From positions 1 to 32,050 of the IMG/VR virus record IMGVR_UViG_3300017971_000610: DNA of 32,050 bases. One strand, written 5' to 3'. The position numbers were made by a program, and so were the translations under genes. Numbering within the stretch: position 1 is the first letter of the stretch; every line of letters begins with the position of its first letter. Below, in pieces: positions 12,104-31,995 of the stretch. The notes under the pieces were generated by a model. The model did not search any database. It was not told where the DNA came from and saw only the letters and a program-made list of their open reading frames with translations. The stretch is from a virus.

Positions 12104-14962
12104 TTACTCCGTATCTCGGCCGCGGAACTTCGCCGACTGCGAATCCCCGCCTGCGTAATCGAACACCGGCGAGCGCGCGTCGAGCGTGAAGGTCGTGCCG
12201 CGCGGGGTCAGGACCCAGCGGTTGTGGTTGCCGGTGATGAAGGCATGTGTGCCGGTGGCGACCAGCGGCACCGCGGTGTCGGTCTCGGTCGCTGCGCTGA
12301 TCGCGGCCTGGCCGGCCAGGATCACGGCGGCGTCTATTTCCAGCGCAGCGGCCAGCGCCTTGCGCAGCGCCGCATTCAGCGTGAGCGCGCTGTCGGTTTC
12401 GCCAGCGACCGCAAGCGCCAGCACGTCGGCAGCGGACAGCGTCACCGCGGTGTCGGTTTCGGTGGCGGCCTGCAGTTTGGTCTTGGTGGCAAGCGTCACC
12501 GCCTGGTCGACTTCGGCGGCGACACCCAGCGGCAGCGCCCCTGACGCCGGCAGCAGGATTTCTGCGGCGTCGACCTCGGCGGCGGCGGTGAGCGCAGCCG
12601 ACACGGCCGCCGACAGGGGCGCAGCGGTATCGGTCTCGGTGGCGGTCGCCAGCGATGCGGACAGGCTCGCCGACAGCGTCACAGCGCCATCGACCTCGGT
12701 GGCCGCCGTCAGTGCATCAATCACCTGCTCGACCAGCGCCACGGCCGCGTCGGTCTCGGTGGCCACTGCAAGGGAATCCACCAGGCTGGCCGACAGGGTC
12801 GCCCCGGCATCCGTTTCGGTGGCGGCGGTCAGTGCATCGATCACCTGCTCGACCAGCGCCACGGCCGCGTCGGTCTCGGTGGCCACTGCCAGGGAATCCA
12901 CCAGGCTGGCCGACAGGGTCACAGCCGCATCGGTCTCGGTGGCGGCGGTCAGCGGTGTCGCTGTGACCGCCTCGACCAGCGTCACCGCGCTGTCGGTCTC
13001 GGTCGCCGCCGTCAGCGGGTCGCCGCCGGCCCCTGCGCGCCAATCTGCGCCGATGCACCATTCGCTTCCGGCTGATGGCATTGCCTCGCCGTCGATGTCA
13101 TAGATTGGCGGAGTAAGATCACCCTCGTCGTAAAGGTTAAGGCCAGCATCGATCAGGGAAGAAGAGGCGGAAAGGTGATAGTCGCCTATTGCAGTGTTTT
13201 CGAAATCGGCGCTGGTGATCTCAAAAACATTATTTGCGCCCGTTGCCGCAAGGTTTGACGCGGCACTCGTTTTGTCCGTTGCATTGTTTTTATAGTAAGT
13301 CGTATTTGATGCGCCAGATGCAAAGTCGGTCGTGCAATTGTAGGCAATACAGTTAATTGCTGATCCTAGCCCCTCGTTTCCGTCTTCAAAACCAATATTG
13401 CAATCTACGGCAACGCAGTTATAAAACACTGACTCGCCTTGCGAGGCCCAGTTTCCGAAATTAAATCCAGTCTGACTTGCTGCTGTATTGCCGATAAACA
13501 AACATGAGACCGCATAACTATATTTTGCTCCAGTGGCATCGTCAGGATTTCCCAGAAGAAAACCAGCGAAATCATTGCTGTTTGCACTGGCATCAACAAA
13601 GCAGCGATCTATTAGTCTAACTATGTCCGATGTTCCGGAGAGAATCCACGTTGCGTTATGTGCCGGCTTAAAAGCTAGATTTTCAAATCGGGTAAAGTCT
13701 TGCTCGCAATCTATACCCTGCCAATTGTTATTGGATGTGAAAAAGAATCCAGATTCTACGTCAATTCCGTCGTGCTGATTCCCGGATGCAACATCAATCT
13801 TTATATAACATCGCTCGTCGGTCGTCCAACCGCCAATAACCCATGACTCACCTAGAGCCAAGCCACTAGCCCAATCATCGTAAAAACGTCCAATGGCAAT
13901 CTCGCCAACGGCGGTCAAATCTTTCTGTTCGCCCGACTCCCATGCGGTGTGGCTAGTGTAATCGCCAAGACTGGCGCGGATCGTCTTTACAACTTCAACC
14001 ACTCCGCGCGATGCGCCGATGGGCCAATGCTCAGTGCCGCCTGTGTCTTGGAATGAAAAGCCTTCGAGGTCGATGTAATCGCTTGCGGTTCCGAGATCGA
14101 TTCCAGCGTCATATAAACTCGCTGCTGTGCTGTCGATGCGATAGTCATCGCTTGCGGCGTTTAGGAATTCGTCACCAAGGTCGTAGATAGAATTAGAAAC
14201 GTCTGATTCAGTGTCATCAAACCCGCTTGTACCACTGCTAAAGCTCGTTGCGTTCGTGTCTACTTCGCAAGTTGCGTCTCTAGTTGCAGATAGCACTAAG
14301 TCTGCCGCCCAGTTGCCATACACGACGCAATTCTTTATATAAACCGTGTCTGAGTGACCTATAGAAAGAGCGTTTCCCCCCGGAGTGGATTTAGTTTGAA
14401 CAAGGGTGCAATTTTCAAAATACGCGCTCGGTGTATATGAAGATCCAGCCCATACACCTGCACCATTTGTGCATAAAAGAAGACTGCCATAAATTGTGAA
14501 AGTGTTTCTGTAATTGTAAATTAACCCCTTTGCTGAATTCGTCTGTGTGAGAATACAAGATTCTACTATTGTGTCGTTTTTGTTGCTTCGTATTGATAGT
14601 GCGTATGAGTTGGCCCCGCTCGCGACTTTGGATTCGATGCCACTTATCGTTACATTGTTGTTATTAGTTGTAAGCGGCTCATCATATCCGGTCTGCGTAT
14701 ATATCCGCGCGCCAGTTCCAGGTGTGCCATCGTGCTTTTCTCCATCCGCAGCACGGATAATAATTCTTCGCGTTGTGTCGGTTGTCCACGCGCCTAACTC
14801 ACAATTTTCTAGTAGCCCGTCGCCGCTCCAGTCGTTGTAAAGCTCGGCAACGGCGATCTCATCTGCGGTGACGAGATCGCGTTGTTGCGCAGCTTCCCAA
14901 GCCGACAGGGACGTATAGTCACCGCCAGACGAGCGAATAGAATGGACGACCTCGGTAGCCAT
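12104..14962 (-). CDS. Repeat-rich beta-helix tail fibre/appendage protein (952 aa)
   Basis: Residues 1 to about 315 and about 317-650 are two copies of the same layout. Each begins with a VV-x-(S/T)IR(S/A)S-x-GDYTS..AWE opening, followed by Asn/Cys/Gly-rich ladder strands typical of right-handed parallel beta-helices (pectate-lyase-like), and ends in an 'idaG' style cap. Residues about 655-910 hold 13 imperfect 20-residue repeats of type LTAATETDAAVTLSASLVD. A short C-terminal beta region follows (HNRWVLTPRGTTFTLDA). This architecture fits a receptor-binding fibre, possibly with glycan-depolymerising activity, but no catalytic motif was identified. The beta-helix DNA (about 13080-14960) is clearly lower in GC than its surroundings, suggesting transfer. 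An adaptor-like gene lies downstream. Confidence 0.7.
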   Translation of the reverse strand: MATEVVHSIRSSGGDYTSLSAWEAAQQRDLVTADEIAVAELYNDWSGDGLLENCELGAWTTDTTRRIIIRAADGEKHDGTPGTGARIYTQTGYDEPLTTNNNNVTISGIESKVASGANSYALSIRSNKNDTIVESCILTQTNSAKGLIYNYRNTFTIYGSLLLCTNGAGVWAGSSYTPSAYFENCTLVQTKSTPGGNALSIGHSDTVYIKNCVVYGNWAADLVLSATRDATCEVDTNATSFSSGTSGFDDTESDVSNSIYDLGDEFLNAASDDYRIDSTAASLYDAGIDLGTASDYIDLEGFSFQDTGGTEHWPIGASRGVVEVVKTIRASLGDYTSHTAWESGEQKDLTAVGEIAIGRFYDDWASGLALGESWVIGGWTTDERCYIKIDVASGNQHDGIDVESGFFFTSNNNWQGIDCEQDFTRFENLAFKPAHNATWILSGTSDIVRLIDRCFVDASANSNDFAGFLLGNPDDATGAKYSYAVSCLFIGNTAASQTGFNFGNWASQGESVFYNCVAVDCNIGFEDGNEGLGSAINCIAYNCTTDFASGASNTTYYKNNATDKTSAASNLAATGANNVFEITSADFENTAIGDYHLSASSSLIDAGLNLYDEGDLTPPIYDIDGEAMPSAGSEWCIGADWRAGAGGDPLTAATETDSAVTLVEAVTATPLTAATETDAAVTLSASLVDSLAVATETDAAVALVEQVIDALTAATETDAGATLSASLVDSLAVATETDAAVALVEQVIDALTAATEVDGAVTLSASLSASLATATETDTAAPLSAAVSAALTAAAEVDAAEILLPASGALPLGVAAEVDQAVTLATKTKLQAATETDTAVTLSAADVLALAVAGETDSALTLNAALRKALAAALEIDAAVILAGQAAISAATETDTAVPLVATGTHAFITGNHNRWVLTPRGTTFTLDARSPVFDYAGGDSQSAKFRGRDTE
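12255..13023 (-). repeat. 60-bp coding repeats inside the fibre gene
   Basis: Thirteen imperfect units of about 60 bp encode the ATETD-type 20-residue repeat. Two units form a longer, nearly identical 120-bp period: about 80 bp starting near 12720 recurs starting near 12840 with few differences. Such identity between neighbouring units points to recent duplication and makes copy-number change by recombination likely. Confidence 0.8.
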
Positions 14963-18856: not shown

Positions 18857-21052
18857 TCAGCTACCGGCGTTTTTGACGACGCACTGATACGCGAGCGCGG
18901 CCACGCCGTACTCCATGCGCACCTTGTACTCGATACCGTCGACCGACCAGCCCTCGCGGCTCTCGATCTGCGGCGCATCCTGGCCACGCACGAACGCGAC
19001 CTCGATAAACGGCACCGGGCCTTGCGGGCTCGACTGCACAAACCAGTCGTCGGCGGTGCCGTCGGCGCCGCCGAGGCGGTCTTCAACGACCACCTGCAGG
19101 TTCGAGAACTGGTTGGCGGCCCGCTTCTCGGCCAGGCCGTCGCCGGATGTCAGCTCATAATCGAGCTGCTCGGCACCGACCAGCGCGCGGCCCTCGGTTT
19201 CCCACACCGGCGGCAGGATCAAAAGCGACGGCGACAGGCCCAGCGTCGCGTTGCCGCTGGGGTCTTTCTGCACCCGCATCAGGCGGCGCGCTTCCGACAG
19301 TGTGGCCGTGGCCGGTGCGCCGGCGGTGCCAATGTTGGCGTGGCCGGCGTCGAAAACCGCGGTGCTGTCCTGGTTCAGGGTCGGGTTGCCGGTATAGATC
19401 GCCCACACGTCGTCGCCGACCTTGCGGTTGGCGGCCATGGCGATCTTGCTCGCGTTATCGCGGAACACCTGCAGGTCGTCGTTGACAATCGCCTCGCGCG
19501 TGAAGGCGATCATGCGGCCGTACTTCTTCGCGGTCAGGTACTCGACCACGTCGGACATCGAGCCGTGCTTGTACTCGCCGCCCTCGGGCACCATCAGCAG
19601 GTCATCGAACGCGGACATCGCCGGCCGGCTGGCCTGCTTGAAGTCCGGCACCTGGCCGACGCGCACCACCTGGCGCCAGGTCTCCTGCACCTGCTCATAC
19701 ATGACCCGGATCTGCTTGTCGATCACGTTGGCCAGCAGGCCCGGGAAGTCGCCGGTCGAATGCGCGGCCATCACGTCGAAGCCGACCGCCATGCGGGCGT
19801 TGACGCTCTTGTCCAGCAGCGCGCCGACGATGCGGTCCTTGTCGGCATACTCGACACCGCGCATGCCGACATCGCGTGCGAACGCGCGTGCCAGCTCGGA
19901 CATCGGCAGGCCGACCAGATCGTTGCCTTTCTTGTCGGCGTCGGGCTTGACCCCGAACGCGAACGCCATGGCTTCGGCGTAGGCGGCGAAGCGCTTCTCG
20001 TCATGGGTCTCACCCATCGACGCGCCACCTAAATGGCGTGAGGCGTTCGGCGGCGCCTGGTAACTCTGCGCCATCCCATACTGCTCCTGCGCCACGATCG
20101 GGCGTTGGGTCGACGTGGCCAGCACCTGCGAGAGGATACGGTGCGCCTCCAGCTCGCTGCAGTTGACATCGGACAGACACTCGCGCTGCGCGGCGGTGAC
20201 CGGGTTCAGCTCATCGCCGTCATAAAACGGCGCGAACACCGCCTCGACGGCGGCCCGGCGCTTGGCCTCGGCCTTAACGCCCTGTTCGCGGCCCGCGTCG
20301 AGCGTGCGCTGGTGTTTGGCGGCAAAGTCGCCGGAATCGTCGGGCGCGCCTGCGGCGTTGTTGCCCGAGGTGTTTTCGTTTGCCATTTTGGCGGCCCTCG
20401 TTTCGGCGCGACCATCGGCCGCGGTGAGTTGCGCATCGCCCCTTGCGGCAATGCGAAAAGATTCAGGCGCGGACGCGGCGACCGCAATGTCGATGACCTC
20501 ATCGACCAGGTTCGCGTCCAGCGCTTGCGCGGCGCTGAAGTAGACGTCCTCGTCCGACTTCAGCCAACCGCGCACGGTGTCTTCGTCGATGCCGTGGCGC
20601 GTGTATGCCGGCACCATGGCCTCGGCATGCGCATCCAGCGCGTCGGCGATCTCGCGGTGATCCTTGGCGCTACCGCGGCCAAAGGTGATCAGCGACGACG
20701 GGCCGTGCACCATCACCATGGCCATCGGCTGAGCCAGGCGGCGGTCGCCGGCCTGCAGGATCATCGACCCGGCGCTGTAGGCCTTGCCGTCGGCGATCGT
20801 GCGCACGTGTGCCGGGTGGTCGACCAGCGCCTGATACATCTGGCCCGCGGCCAGCATGTCGCCGCCGATCGAGGCGATGCGCACGTCGATCTGTTCGGCC
20901 TTGATCTCGCGCACCTCGGCGATGAACTCGTCGCGATCAATCCAGGCGCCGTCGCCGTCGGGCATCTGAATCCCTCCATACAGGTAGACGGTGGCGGTGT
21001 CGCCCTGCGCCACGACGCGAAACCCGGGGTCAGTCTTCGCCGTTGTCGTCAT
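18857..21052 (-). CDS. ClpP-like prohead protease-scaffold-major capsid fusion (731 aa)
   Basis: Residues 1-190 form a ClpP/S14-type protease: SIGGD at 61-65, the nucleophile region AYSAGSM with Ser96, the His region MVMVHGPS with His116, and a likely Asp near 167-169. Residues about 220-340 are charged, helical and scaffold-like, beginning at Met223 (MANENTSGNN), where an internal start could yield a separate scaffold or capsid product. Residues about 345-731 have major-capsid features (SARPAMSAFDDLLMVPEGG, IAFTREAIVNDDL, then beta-rich P-domain-like strands). Fused protease-capsid proteins are known in phages. In most relatives the genes are separate. The start at 21052 overlaps the portal gene by 23 nt. 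Confidence 0.8.
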   Translation of the reverse strand: MTTTAKTDPGFRVVAQGDTATVYLYGGIQMPDGDGAWIDRDEFIAEVREIKAEQIDVRIASIGGDMLAAGQMYQALVDHPAHVRTIADGKAYSAGSMILQAGDRRLAQPMAMVMVHGPSSLITFGRGSAKDHREIADALDAHAEAMVPAYTRHGIDEDTVRGWLKSDEDVYFSAAQALDANLVDEVIDIAVAASAPESFRIAARGDAQLTAADGRAETRAAKMANENTSGNNAAGAPDDSGDFAAKHQRTLDAGREQGVKAEAKRRAAVEAVFAPFYDGDELNPVTAAQRECLSDVNCSELEAHRILSQVLATSTQRPIVAQEQYGMAQSYQAPPNASRHLGGASMGETHDEKRFAAYAEAMAFAFGVKPDADKKGNDLVGLPMSELARAFARDVGMRGVEYADKDRIVGALLDKSVNARMAVGFDVMAAHSTGDFPGLLANVIDKQIRVMYEQVQETWRQVVRVGQVPDFKQASRPAMSAFDDLLMVPEGGEYKHGSMSDVVEYLTAKKYGRMIAFTREAIVNDDLQVFRDNASKIAMAANRKVGDDVWAIYTGNPTLNQDSTAVFDAGHANIGTAGAPATATLSEARRLMRVQKDPSGNATLGLSPSLLILPPVWETEGRALVGAEQLDYELTSGDGLAEKRAANQFSNLQVVVEDRLGGADGTADDWFVQSSPQGPVPFIEVAFVRGQDAPQIESREGWSVDGIEYKVRMEYGVAALAYQCVVKNAGS

Positions 21053-26928: not shown

Positions 26929-26966
26929 CTATCCAGCACGGTGTCGATTTCCACGGCCAACGTGTT

Positions 26967-28503
26967 TCACGTGCCCTCCAAAAAGGCCTGCCCGGTGTCC
27001 GCATGGATTGCCGTCTTGCCGGTGTGGTCCTGCCAGCGGCGTACGACGACATCGACGTACGCCGGGTTCAATTCCATGGTGTAGCAGCGCCGGCCGGTGC
27101 GCTCGGCCCCCATCAGGGTCGAGCCCGAGCCCGCAAACGGCTCGAAGCACAAGCCCCCCCGACGGTAGGCTGGTTTTCATCACCCGCGCCATCATGTCGA
27201 CCGGTTTCGGTGTGGCGTGGCCGTGGCGCTCGTCACCGACCACGCGGCCGTACTGCCACACGTCGCACATGGCGTCGTGCGCGTTGTCAAAATAGCAGCG
27301 CATGCTGGCGTGGCGGTCGGCCTTGAAACTGTTACCCTTGCCGCGCAGCGTCGCCCACTCGGCCTTGAGATCGGACCACGGCCGGCGGAACTGCGCCGGG
27401 AAGGCGGCCTGCAGCGTGGCGTAGTGTTTTGCCGGGATCAGGGTGAACTGCGAGCGTGAGAACCAATGCGAGAACATACCAACGCCGCACAGCTCGCGCA
27501 GGCGCGCGGCGGTCAGCCCGGCCGCCTCGGCCTCACCGGCGAGATACCCGCGCAGCGGTTCCCACTCCGGCGGGAAGTCGTCGGTGTTGATATTGCCCAG
27601 GAACTGTTTTCCCACCGCGAAATACAGGCAGCGCTCGGTGGCGGTCGGAAAGCTCAGCTCCAGGTCCGACGCCATCCCGATCGCGTTGCCCTTGTGCCAC
27701 ACGATCTCGTTCTTTAGCTCCAGGTGTTCCGACGGCGCCAGTTGGTCGTACCACAGTCGCCACAGCTCGGGCGCGTTGCCCCAGATATACGCCGACGCCT
27801 GGTCGGCCAGGTGCGCCCGGAACACCCGCCACCACGCCATCTGAAACGCATCCAGTTTTTCGCGGTACAGGTTGTCGTTGGCCACACCCTCGGATTGTTT
27901 GCCCATCCCGTATGGCGGGTCGGCGTGGACCAGGGTCGCCGTCTCGCCGTTGGCCAGGCGCGCCACGTCGCCGGCGTCGGTCGAGTCGCCGCACATCACG
28001 CGGTGGTCGCCGCACAGCCACACATCGCCCGGTCGGCTCACCGGCACCGCCGGCGCGTCGGGGATGCTGTCTTCGCCGTGGCGATCGGGTAACACGTCAC
28101 CAACCAGCGCTGCCAGCTCGCGCTCATTGAAGCCGATCAGGTCTAAGTCGAAGTCGAGCGACGACAGCGCGGTCAGCTCCAGGCGCAGCATGTCCTCATC
28201 CCAGCCGGCATTGAGCGCCAACTGGTTGTCGGCGATCACGTACGCCCGCTTTTGCGCGTCGGTCAGGCCTGATAGGACCAGCGCGGGCACCTGCGCCATA
28301 CCGAGCTGTTTAGCGGCCATGATCCGGCCGTGGCCGGCGATCACCCCTCCCCCCTCGTCGATGAGTACCGGGTTTGTGAACCCGAACTCGCGGATGCTGG
28401 CGACGATCTGCGCCACCTGCGCGTCGCTGTGCGTGCGACTGTTCCGGGCGTAAGGGATCAGCGCCTCGACATCGGCCAGCTCCAGCGCGGTGTGCATTCT
28501 CAT
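26967..28503 (-). CDS. ParB-N6-adenine DNA methyltransferase fusion with apparent frameshift
   Basis: The N-terminal 100 residues are a ParB/sulfiredoxin-type domain (LIPYARNSRTHSD, then GHGRIMAAKQLG), a pairing common in phage methyltransferases. The methyltransferase part has motif IV DPPYGM (about residues 190-200). Motif I, FAGSGST, lies near the C-terminus, so motif order is beta-class. A run of seven C on the plus strand (27154-27160; G7 in the gene) shifts the frame: the upstream frame continues with unrelated residues, while motif I and the C-terminal end (ELNPAYVDVVVRRWQDH) lie in the next frame and stop at 26967. With one G fewer, the 511-aa protein is intact. The cause may be sequencing error, phase variation or decay. 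The start at 28503 overlaps the previous stop (TGATG). Confidence 0.85.
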
Positions 28504-28670
28504 CAGCGCATCGCCGTGGTGTTGCGATCGTGGCCGACCACGCTGTAGACAATGCGGCCGGTCTTGCGATCCAACCACGCATCGCCGGCGAAATCGTCGC
28601 CGCGCCGGATGCGGCGATCCTGATCAGGCCGGCGCTCAAAGCGCGGGCGGTCATCGTTGTGCTTATTCAC
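28503..28670 (-). CDS. Small basic protein (55 aa, GTG start)
   Basis: A GTG at 28670-28668 lies inside the last codons of the small terminase gene (its stop is 28665-28663). The frame ends with TGA at 28505-28503, overlapping the methyltransferase start. The product is highly charged: NKHNDDRPRFERRPDQDRR then IRRGDDFAGDAWLDRKTG, ending IVYSVVGHDRNTT. It looks like a small phage protein whose C-terminal strand could form a beta-hairpin. Coupling on both sides supports a real gene. Function unknown. Confidence 0.6.
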   Translation of the reverse strand: MNKHNDDRPRFERRPDQDRRIRRGDDFAGDAWLDRKTGRIVYSVVGHDRNTTAMR

Positions 28671-29238
28671 TCAAGTCCTCAATCTTGCGTTCCAGTAGGT
28701 CGGCGACTTCGTGCGCCATGTCGTGTGCCCCCTCGTTCAGGGTCTTGCGGATCGCCGCGGCGTCGCCGGCGTGCGCGGCGATGGTGCCGGCCAGGCGGTC
28801 GGGCATGTTCTGCAGCAGGCGGCGCATCGCGCGCCCGATTTCATCCAGCACCCGGTCCACGGTCTCGCGCTCGACCAGCGCGCCGGCCAGGCGGTCCAGA
28901 TCCAGCTCGGCCATCTCGCGCTTGGCCCTTTGCAGCTTCAGGGTCTCGATCTTGAGCGCGGCGCCGAGTTTTTCCACCTGGCCGGCGCCGGGCATCGGAT
29001 CCGCCGGTTGCGCGGGTTGCGCCGGCAGTTGCGCCTTCTGGGAGTCGATCTGCGCCTTGCGCGCCTGGTGGTGCGGCATCGGGCTCTCGCTGGCGTCGCG
29101 CTCGCGGCTGGCCTGGTCGACATCGACCCGGCCATCGGCGGCCAGGGTGATGCGCCCGTTCTGCACCCACCGCGTCACGGTGGATTTGTTGACGCCCATC
29201 CGGCGCGCGAACTCGGCCTGGCTCACCCTTTCAGGCAT
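28663..29238 (-). CDS. Terminase small subunit, Nu1-like (191 aa)
   Basis: The start chosen is the ATG at 29238 (MPERVSQAEFARRMG). A GTG at 29250 lies in the palindrome of the adjacent array and adds only four residues. The N-terminus is an HTH (VSQAEFARRMGVNKSTVTRW, then VQNGRI) with the winged, merR-like layout of Nu1-type proteins. A Gln/Pro-rich linker and a long helical C-terminus (IETLKLQRAKREMAELDLDRLAG onward) follow, as used for oligomerisation and large-subunit contact. It recognises the packaging start site; the direct repeat array at its 5' side is a natural candidate for that site. Confidence 0.8.
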   Translation of the reverse strand: MPERVSQAEFARRMGVNKSTVTRWVQNGRITLAADGRVDVDQASRERDASESPMPHHQARKAQIDSQKAQLPAQPAQPADPMPGAGQVEKLGAALKIETLKLQRAKREMAELDLDRLAGALVERETVDRVLDEIGRAMRRLLQNMPDRLAGTIAAHAGDAAAIRKTLNEGAHDMAHEVADLLERKIEDLSE

Positions 29239-29244
29239 CGGCGG

Positions 29245-29519
29245 TTCCACGTGGAACAGGGTTTGCGACTTTCCACGGTTTCCACCAAGGCCTCCACGCC
29301 TGGAACATCAGGTAAGTCTTTGAAATGGTTTTTTTTCCACGCCTTCCACGCATTCCACGCCATACGCGCACGTGCGCGCGTTGCCGCGCGCATCGGGCAC
29401 CACGCCGCACGCTGTGCGCACGCACGCGACCCCATAAAGGCGTGGAAGGCGTGGAAACCAAGCGAATCAACACGTTATGGCGTGGAAACTCGGTGGAAAG
29501 CGGCGTGGAATGCGTGGAA
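29245..29519. repeat. TTCCACG/CGTGGAA iteron array (candidate origin or packaging site)
   Basis: No gene was found in this 270-bp gap. The left arm has TTCCACG at 29245, 29271, 29335, 29344 and 29353, plus near copies at 29280 (TTCCACC) and 29292 (CTCCACG). The right arm has the complement, CGTGGAA, at 29441, 29450, 29481, 29504 and 29513, plus GGTGGAA at 29492. Several neighbours are spaced exactly 9 bp (29335/29344/29353, 29441/29450, 29504/29513). The first site is a perfect 12-bp palindrome, TTCCACGTGGAA (29245-29256). The middle holds a perfect palindrome CGCGCACGTGCGCG (29365-29378). An AT-rich tract (about 29311-29337) lies beside the left arm. Iterons next to a primase-helicase fit a P4-like origin; the adjacent small terminase also fits a cos or pac site. 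Confidence 0.8.
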
Positions 29520-29520
29520 A

Positions 29521-31995
29521 TCATACCTCCAGCCCCATCGCGCGCTCGAAAATGAAAAAACACCGGGTCAGCCACCGCGCCTTGGTCTCGTCTTCGCGGC
29601 GCAGTACCGCGTCGCGTAGCTCCGACGGCGCGGTCGCGTAGGCCGCCTCGATCTCGGTGTTTGGCATCACCACCATCTTGCGCGACTTGTAGGCGCCCTC
29701 GGCGCCGCGCGCCAGGCTCGGATGCGTCTTCTCGGTGCGCCCGGCGGTCCAGCCGTGGCGCTTGTTCAGGCGGCCGATCAGGTCCTTCGCCGCGCGCCGG
29801 CGCTCGCCGTGGCGATCGCACCACGCCGAGTAGGCCCGGTACAGGGTCGAGCCGAGACAAGGACAAAACGGCAGCGGATCGCCGTCTTCGCCCTCGATGT
29901 CCAGCGCCTGCCAGTCGACCAGAAAGCGCTCCTCGCTTGACCGGCCCAGGTTGATCAGATCCGCCTTGGCCGCGGTCATGGGTGGCAGCGTCCAGGGTTT
30001 GAAGTCGCCGAGGTCGAGGTTTAAGAGGTAGTCGTGCAAGGCCGCGATCCCGCCTTGCTCGATCTCGGTGTTGACCTTCTCGAAATACACCGGGTCCAGC
30101 TTCGGCGGCGTGTACATGACGCAATGCCGGCGGTCGTCGGCTTCCAGCGCCAGCGGCATGCCCTCGTTCGAGAGAAACACCATGTTCATGTGGTTGCGCT
30201 CATTGTGCGCCGCCACGTTCTTCGGGTTGACGCGGATGGTGTCGCCGGTGATGAAGCCCTTGAGCCGGTTTTTGACGTGAAACATCTCGGAGCGCGCCAG
30301 CACCTCGTCGGCGATGATGAACAGTTTGCGCTCGGCCCAATCGGCGTTGAACTTGTCCTCCAGCGCCTCCTGCCCCAACACCCGCGCATAGTCGCCAAAT
30401 ATCTTGGCGTAGGCCTCAAAGAACCGCGACTTGCCGGTGCCCTGCGGGCCATGGCACACCAGCGCGCTGTGCATCTTGGCGCCGCGGTGCTGCAGCGGAT
30501 AGGCCAGCCACTTCAGCACCCACTCAAACAGGCCGACGTCGTTCTTTTCGTTGCTGCACAGGTATTCCAGCAGCCCCAAAAGCTCGTCGCATTCACCGGG
30601 CGCCGGTTCCGTCGGCCAGCCCGCGAACAGGTTGCAGCGGATCGCCGGGTCCCTCTCGGTCGGATCAAAGCCGACCTCGGTGTCGCGCGCCACGCGCCAC
30701 TTCGGGTGGCTTTTGAGCGCATCCCAGCCGCGCGCCGGCAGCAGGTTCAGCACGTCGTCGCGGTGCACCAGGCGGCGCTCGACCTCGTCGAAAAACACCT
30801 TGCCGCCGAAACCATAGGTACCCCAATAGCGCAGGGCCGCCTCGTCGACCGAGAGCTGCGACGGCATACCGCCCGCTTCCCCGCCCCCCTCAGATGTTGC
30901 GCCCGCCGCCGCGTCGTGCCAGCCGGCCGCCTGGATCGCCGCATTCACCTGGTCGGCCAGGGTGAGGGAAACCCCGGTCAGCACGGCCAGGTCGTTGAAG
31001 TCGGTCAGCTTGCGCCCGGCGCGCAAATCGGTACCGGTGTCGTCGCGGAAGTCGGGCTTGCACCACGCCGCGTTCTCGATCTCGGCGGTGGCCTGCGCCG
31101 CGGCGGTGACCCCGGGGTTGCCCTTGGTCTGGTAGTCGTCGTCGGCGCAGAACAGCAGCCGCACGCCGGGATACTTCTTTCGGATCGCCTTGCCGGCCTT
31201 GAGCAGGTTGTTCGCCGAGAATGCGTACGCGACCGAATAGCCGGTGGCCTGGCGCAGGCTCGCCGCGGTGGCGTAGCCCTCGCAGATCAGCAACAGCGCC
31301 GAGCGGGGCAGCGGCCCCAGCAGGCCAAAGGTGCCGGCCATCCCCATGCCGGCCGGCCAGAATTCCTTATCGCGCTGGATCTTGGCCTTGCGCGGATGCG
31401 CGCGCCCGTAGATGAACTGCAGCCCGGCGATCACGCCGGCGGCGTCGTGCATCGGCACGACCAGCGCACCCACCGCCTGTTGCAGGCGCCACTTGTTAGT
31501 CTCGTCGACGTTGGGCAGGTCGATCCCGTCCAGGCTCGCCAGGTGGCGCACGCCGGCGGCGTCGATCTGTTTGCGCTCCAGGTAGTCGTGATCGGCCGGC
31601 GCGGGCGCGGCCATGCCCCACACGACGCCGGCCCACTTGGCCGCGGTCTTTTCCTCGGCCCGGCGCAGTTTTTCCAGCGCCTCGCGCCGGGCCTTGTTCG
31701 CGCGCCGGATCGCGGCCTGGTCTTCGGCGGTGATCGCCGGCGTGTGGTCGTCTTTGGGTGGCAGCTCGATGTCCTGGCGTCCGTCGTCGGCGCCATGCCA
31801 CACCCCGAACTTCCCGACCACGAACACGTTGCCGGCCTTGCTGGTCCAGGTGCGCAGCCACGACCAGCCGCGGCGCTCGCGGTCCTCACCATCCACGCGC
31901 CAGCGCTGCGGGCGGGCGGTGTCGACCAGCACATCGCGGTCGAGGATAAAGCCCGCGGCGCGGAGCTGGGAGACGGCGTGGTCGAAATTCTGCAT
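29521..31995 (-). CDS. Primase-helicase, Toprim plus DUF5906/P4-like helicase (824 aa)
   Basis: An N-terminal region (1-90) is followed by a Toprim core: LLLICEGYATAA with Glu239, and LLFCADDD at about 280-287. A linker and an SF3/D5-like helicase module then carry Walker A CHGPQGTGKS (about 515-523) and Walker B KLFIIADEV (557-565), with a conserved FVLGNVxxH-type end replaced here by HNERNHMNMVFLSNEGMP. A C-terminal winged domain is likely. Combined primase and helicase in one protein is typical of satellite and prophage replication systems such as P4 alpha. No CxxC zinc knuckle was seen near the N-terminus. The stop at 29521 abuts the iteron array, and the start follows the small gene ending at 32003. 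Confidence 0.9.
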   Translation of the reverse strand: MQNFDHAVSQLRAAGFILDRDVLVDTARPQRWRVDGEDRERRGWSWLRTWTSKAGNVFVVGKFGVWHGADDGRQDIELPPKDDHTPAITAEDQAAIRRANKARREALEKLRRAEEKTAAKWAGVVWGMAAPAPADHDYLERKQIDAAGVRHLASLDGIDLPNVDETNKWRLQQAVGALVVPMHDAAGVIAGLQFIYGRAHPRKAKIQRDKEFWPAGMGMAGTFGLLGPLPRSALLLICEGYATAASLRQATGYSVAYAFSANNLLKAGKAIRKKYPGVRLLFCADDDYQTKGNPGVTAAAQATAEIENAAWCKPDFRDDTGTDLRAGRKLTDFNDLAVLTGVSLTLADQVNAAIQAAGWHDAAAGATSEGGGEAGGMPSQLSVDEAALRYWGTYGFGGKVFFDEVERRLVHRDDVLNLLPARGWDALKSHPKWRVARDTEVGFDPTERDPAIRCNLFAGWPTEPAPGECDELLGLLEYLCSNEKNDVGLFEWVLKWLAYPLQHRGAKMHSALVCHGPQGTGKSRFFEAYAKIFGDYARVLGQEALEDKFNADWAERKLFIIADEVLARSEMFHVKNRLKGFITGDTIRVNPKNVAAHNERNHMNMVFLSNEGMPLALEADDRRHCVMYTPPKLDPVYFEKVNTEIEQGGIAALHDYLLNLDLGDFKPWTLPPMTAAKADLINLGRSSEERFLVDWQALDIEGEDGDPLPFCPCLGSTLYRAYSAWCDRHGERRRAAKDLIGRLNKRHGWTAGRTEKTHPSLARGAEGAYKSRKMVVMPNTEIEAAYATAPSELRDAVLRREDETKARWLTRCFFIFERAMGLEV

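Follow-up and report, generated by a model that had tools for sequence, protein, structure and literature searches.

Mirrored iteron arms beside a primase-helicase gene as a probable replication origin in a family of tailed phages

Introduction

The replication origins of the satellites SaPIbov1 and EcCICFT073 (SaPI/PICI) are the closest described counterparts of the locus analyzed here. They are located directly 3' of the primase/helicase gene and consist of short iterons arranged in two opposed sets on either side of a short, AT-rich center; the initiator possesses a C-terminal origin-recognition part. The replication segment of EcCICFT073 maintains a plasmid, and its origin was tested experimentally and found to be needed for replication (PMC6092414). 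In the SCCmec element, the C-terminal domain of the helicase Cch2 binds repeats that lie immediately downstream of the helicase gene itself (PMC7581432). That putative origin comprises only three iterons, which are direct repeats, with no opposed arms and no fused primase. The alpha protein of P4 is a fused primase-helicase, whose C-terminal DNA-binding domain reads repeated short sites, and two distinct sites, ori and crr, are used in P4.

In the window, i.e., the whole 32,050-base stretch of a virus record analyzed here, an array of short words starts 2 bp off the stop codon of a primase-helicase gene, directly 3' of it, and fills the gap between this stop (29521) and the start of the small terminase gene terS (ATG at 29238). 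The original prediction had regarded the array either as a replication origin recognized by the primase-helicase or as a terminase binding site. The position 3' of the gene and the two opposed sets of iterons are shared with SaPI/PICI origins, and an origin-recognition role of the C-terminal part of the window's protein is suggested by covariation. The likeness to EcCICFT073 extends to the site plan, including reversed inner copies (47-, 56-, 102+, 124-, 135-, 144- in one set and 175+, 186+, 208-, 254+, 263+ in the other; positions in the searched stretch), and to a homologous helicase, as its Pri-Rep protein matches the family of the window's protein (phrog_2249, E 1e-61).

The differences are also clear. 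In place of a short, AT-rich center, the window has a GC-rich spacer of about 81 bp with alternating purines and pyrimidines; the SaPI/PICI elements are satellites, whereas the window encodes its own terminase, portal and capsid proteins; and dozens of word classes occur here within one family. Because both an AT-rich center and a satellite lifestyle were tested for and neither was found, the array was not filed as a PICI origin. It shares with SCCmec the position beside the helicase gene and a C-terminal domain as the putative reader. With P4 alpha it shares the fused primase-helicase and, as predicted from sequence comparison, a C-terminal domain reading short repeats, but P4 keeps ori and crr apart, whereas here one site with opposed arms is found. 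As to a crr-like second site, four isolated TTCCACG copies lie elsewhere in the window, and the record may be a fragment. Searches of the open-access literature yielded no paper that describes such an origin for tailed phages. By analogy, the array is best explained as an initiator-specific tailed-phage counterpart of the SaPI/PICI origins, from which it departs in its spacer and in its hypervariable word.

Organization of the array in the window

The region 29245-29519 contains 11 exact TTCCACG/CGTGGAA heptamers, one more than the ten originally counted, and four near copies, i.e., TTCCACC at 29280, TTCCACC at 29492 (minus strand), CTCCACG at 29292 and TTCCAGG at 29299 (minus strand). Over the whole window, 15 copies were found against 4.6 expected and none of 100 shuffles reached 15, which bears out the claim that the array is far beyond chance. 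The sites form two facing arms of six, oriented plus on the left and minus on the right, and separated by the spacer (Table 1). The steps between sites are 9, 12, 43, 9 and 9 bp in one arm and 9, 31, 11, 12 and 9 bp in the other, so the opposed arms with recurring 9-bp spacings were described correctly, as were the 12-bp palindrome TTCCACGTGGAA and the 14-bp palindrome CGCGCACGTGCGCG, both of which are exact. The AT-rich tract was also found, not beside the left arm, as had been stated, but inside it, between its two groups of sites. The cumulative GC skew, proposed as a check, showed no turn at the array; the 2.5 kb between the array and the record end are too short to tell.

Table 1. Features of the array and its flanking genes in the window.
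Feature	Positions	Strand	Description
terS-like small terminase gene (phrog_57)	28663..29250	-	Neighbor only; HTH without word covariation
Extra overlapping opposed word pair	29245..29256	.	Palindrome TTCCACGTGGAA, just upstream of the terS start
terS-side arm	29271..29359	+	Six sites: 29271, 29280 (TTCCACC), 29292 (CTCCACG), 29335, 29344, 29353
AT-rich gap	29299..29334	.	64% AT; splits the two site groups of the terS-side arm; candidate melting element
Spacer	29360..29440	.	81 bp; alternating purine-pyrimidine runs (Z-DNA-prone); 27% AT; holds the palindrome 29365-29378 (CGCGCACGTGCGCG)
Primase-side arm	29441..29519	-	Six sites: 29513, 29504, 29492 (TTCCACC), 29481, 29450, 29441
DNA for the C-terminal domain (residues ~700-816)	29548..29898	-	Covaries with the iteron word
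Primase-helicase gene, 824 aa	29521..31995	-	Pfam and PHROGs matches (phrog_2249, E 5e-120)

Occurrence and geometry of the array in related loci

Relatives were gathered from viral and genome contigs and included proteobacterial prophages, among them those of Stenotrophomonas, Luteimonas and Thauera. No exact TTCCACG array was present in the four closest viral relatives of the primase-helicase, which by itself would appear to refute the prediction. A word-free search, however, revealed that each of the four has opposed arms at the corresponding position, built of a different word. The array was tested in 340 bp around and after the primase stop by counting the copies of one 8-mer, with one mismatch allowed, against 25 dinucleotide shuffles. 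Among loci fetched by primase-helicase homology, the array beat all 25 shuffles in 129 of the 130 that were testable, as anticipated for related genomes with the same genes, and a control stretch within the gene exceeded its shuffles by at least two copies in 2 of 130. Eight loci were weak by the shuffle test, with one of them (L058) failing outright. Relatives with both genes and no array had been named as the observation that would speak against the prediction, and no clear case was found.

Arrays 3' of the primase-helicase gene were also present in the isolates S1, Mcat4, H4907, PG1, LPPA56, pAN, KT1 and PS3, and the isolate PW916 has a related helicase and no array. The arrays of LPPA56 and pAN were missed by the 7-mer detector because it skips two-letter words, and were recognized by eye in the sequence; the PG1 array was borderline by count from the same cause.

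The positions of the sites in relatives were nearly base-exact (about 0, 9, 21, 33, 64 and 73 on the primase side), followed by a spacer with a median length of 81 bp and, beyond it, a roughly mirrored order of sites. Six sites per arm was the commonest count, and mirrored sites made up 0.79 of an arm vs. 0.53 under random placement. L105 represents a perfect mirror, with sites at 0, 9, 21, 64, 73 and 82 and at 173, 182, 191, 234, 246 and 255, and some relatives (L034, L053, L103 and L104) carry a reversed single copy in the same slot of each arm. The word itself fell into 34 classes among 108 loci (e.g., AACCACG, TGTGCGG, CGCACGG, GTTACAG, TTATTAC and TGTTCCA), the sites of both arms changing in concert. 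Two prophages of one Stenotrophomonas strain (PS02289; L035 and L044) have the same word, GTGCGGG, and very similar primases, and thus one initiator could act on both origins.

The TTCCACGTGGAA pair lies outside the six-plus-six plan and is not regular in relatives; through it, the initiator may also control terS. An operator without origin function, by which the primase-helicase or another protein would control the terS/late operon or the primase-helicase's own gene, could draw on the location of this palindromic pair at the terS start, and some initiators also autoregulate. However, twelve precisely spaced sites in mirrored arms, a conserved spacer and downstream genes of varied kind and function are much more than an operator would need. 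Replication moreover requires the counterpart tested in a PICI (PMC6092414), and a purely regulatory role of the array is very improbable.

Composition of the spacer

The spacer of the window contains 27% AT vs. 36% for the genome, and an AT-rich center as in PICIs was therefore rejected. The spacers of relatives averaged 41% AT vs. 48-50% in the gaps inside their arms. The alternation of purines and pyrimidines in the spacer was above that of its own shuffles in all 90 relatives measured (0.70 vs. 0.50, with a longest run of 18.9 vs. 6.6) and peaked 10-20 bp inside each arm. A motif search in the spacers returned YRYRYRYRYGCGCG, in which the first nine positions set purine or pyrimidine and hardly the base. 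An alternating run of 12 to 23 bases was found in the spacer of seven of the eight array-bearing isolates; it was absent from Mcat4, from PW916, which has no array, and from EcCICFT073, whose center shows no such alternation. This pattern suggests selection on DNA shape, e.g., for left-handed DNA or flexible steps.

The primase-helicase and covariation with the iteron word

The primase-helicase comprises a Toprim primase part (residues ~235-341), a DUF5906/VapE-like helicase part (~504-647) and a predicted C-terminal winged helix (~700-816). A PriCT-2 primase part adjoins the primase-helicase in the isolate H4907 and is carried by it in pAN. The AlphaFold2 model of residues 665-824 is a winged helix with a mean pLDDT of 96. 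Fold comparison classified the modeled domain as a generic winged helix, with RFX DNA-binding domains as the best matches (Z 4.8-4.9), and Foldseek gave no match under E 0.001. Against solved structures, the domain sequence had only weak matches (RFX5, E 0.26, and the DNA primase 7ola, E 0.23, the latter representing the SaPI5 type of primase-helicase), and hhalign with the C-terminus of EcCICFT073 Pri-Rep gave a probability of 12%. The structure 1KA8, which we take to be the crystal structure of the P4 alpha C-terminal domain, was absent among the fold matches, an absence that excludes nothing.

The similarity of words between loci followed the identity of the last ~110 residues of the primase-helicase, with a partial r of ~0.30 when the rest of the protein was held fixed, and windows before residue 680 gave values of -0.09 to 0.14. 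In the 89 non-redundant loci with terS, the C-terminal domain correlated with the word at r 0.36 (partial 0.315, Mantel 0/999), and the value for the terS HTH was 0.09, falling to 0.02 once the primase C-terminal domain was allowed for. Neither the primase part, the helicase part nor the terS HTH covaried with the word to a like degree. Pairs of loci with domains at least 60% identical (n = 40) had a mean word similarity of 0.83 vs. 0.30 for dissimilar pairs (n = 3,396), and pairs with 75-76% identical terS HTHs and different primase domains had unrelated words. The data point to the C-terminal domain of the primase-helicase as the part that recognizes the iterons.

Analyzed column by column, the strongest associations with the word were those of S771, R753, K773 and K756, and the nine leading columns likewise included T754 and R772; high-scoring columns outside the domain were H597, V415 and L427. 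In the AlphaFold2 model, the leading residues (753-756 and 770-774) sit on the two strands of the wing hairpin. TGTGCGG words were accompanied by RK(R/K)-type residues at 753-756, CGCACGG and CCGCAC words mostly by H-(K/R)-D, and NN(C/T)ACG words mostly by RK(M/L/I) at 772-774. In the last group, 26 of 27 loci (Fisher p 7e-7) had proline at residue 754 when the base was T and another residue when it was C; this rule was tested on the very loci in which it had been noticed. In a tree built from the remainder of the protein, this base switched at least seven times and all six independent pairs agreed (sign test p 0.03). In one of these pairs, the window has T754 with TTCCACG, and its sister locus L076 has P754 with TGCTACG; the two proteins are 68% identical outside the C-terminal domain.

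Such covariation might also arise if the words and the C-terminal domain moved as one recombination cassette and the array were some other element. The two are adjacent, and the rest of the primase gene is more conserved than the domain (mean identity of 50% vs. 29%). This explanation is nevertheless very unlikely, as the association is centered on wing residues with repeated single-residue/single-base switches, the sites of both arms change together, and the terS HTH on the other side of the array is nearly without signal.

Neighboring genes

In the window and most relatives, terS lies immediately next to the array. The gene that follows the array is often terS and elsewhere a ParB-methylase, a tail gene or another gene; several loci retain the array with no terS within 4 kb, and in PG1, a terS of the P27 family lies ~2 kb from the array. 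In a set gathered by terminase homology, the array accompanied the primase-helicase in 40 of 48 loci by the strict test; six of the eight others beat shuffles in a laxer test, and L221 and L243 (2 of the 48 primase-bearing loci) did not. No clear array was seen beside relatives of terS that had upstream DNA available but lacked such a primase. The array goes with the helicase and not with terS.

The lambda cosB site resembles the locus in being an array of short sites beside terS in the company of a gpA-type large terminase, but here terS does not appear to be the reader, twelve mirrored sites are present, and a lambda-type site would be expected to remain beside terS, whereas this array also occurs where terS is displaced, belongs to a different family or was not detected within 4 kb. 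A packaging site resembling cosB or pac, with the words bound by the HTH of the small terminase, would be one form of the terminase binding site that was the other option of the original prediction. It is suggested by the adjoining terS, to which the lambda cos site is likewise adjacent, and by the large terminase of the lambda gpA family, but it was rejected on the covariation and the neighboring genes given above and is very unlikely.

Two observations concern the neighborhood itself. In L174 (2600-2680), short TTGACA/TTGACG direct repeats, not an opposed array, lie just upstream of a terS without a detected primase-helicase. In the window, the gene at 26929-28578 encodes a ParB N-terminal domain fused to an N6/N4 DNA methylase, and a homologue of it directly follows the array in several relatives (L081, L096, L102, L133 and L148).

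Proposed origin function

The array is very probably a phage replication origin bound by its primase-helicase as two hexamers, with origin activity and double-hexamer loading argued by analogy. This option of the original prediction is strongly supported, because in relatives the array tracks the primase-helicase gene regardless of what lies on its other side, and because changes in the word go along with changes in the C-terminal domain of that protein. The reader domain, its key residues and the six-plus-six geometry are supported by comparison of the sequences, and double-hexamer loading, melting and bidirectional replication would be expected from SaPI/PICI origins. Points against an origin are the lack of a GC-skew turn, a spacer that is not AT-rich, the weak match to 7ola (E 0.23) and a fold match that is only generic (Z 4.9).

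According to the proposed mechanism, the C-terminal winged helix would bind the TTCCACG words mainly by its wing hairpin, and six subunits would line up along each arm, so that two hexameric helicases would assemble facing each other across the 81-bp spacer. The DNA might open in the spacer or in the AT-rich gaps, each hexamer would close around one strand, and the fused primase would begin synthesis in both directions. The conserved alternating spacer raises the possibility that flexible or left-handed DNA, and not a high AT content, serves for opening. More tentatively, a rigid 12-site two-hexamer scaffold might be kept throughout a widespread class of tailed phages, with a word that drifts via a readable wing-residue-to-base code and with a Z-DNA-prone alternation between the arms, conserved in pattern and not in sequence, serving for opening in place of an AT-rich element; we consider this fuller picture possible but doubtful.

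Since the array is spread over a broad family of tailed phages, isolates among them, it probably represents a general replicon of phages, shared by satellites. The natural initiator/origin pairs, about a hundred in number, combine a single geometry with dozens of words and make it possible to work out the joint change of specificity. The predictable place of the putative origin also makes its automatic annotation possible.

Other features of the window

Two further genes of the window were noted. The gene at 18857-21052 encodes a single 731-aa protein with a ClpP-like protease domain and a major capsid protein domain. The gene at 12104-14962 encodes a protein of 952 aa, the C-terminal part of which contains ATETDAAVTLxxxx repeats in tandem, and in the 13-15 kb stretch, the GC content falls to 49% vs. 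~65% around it.
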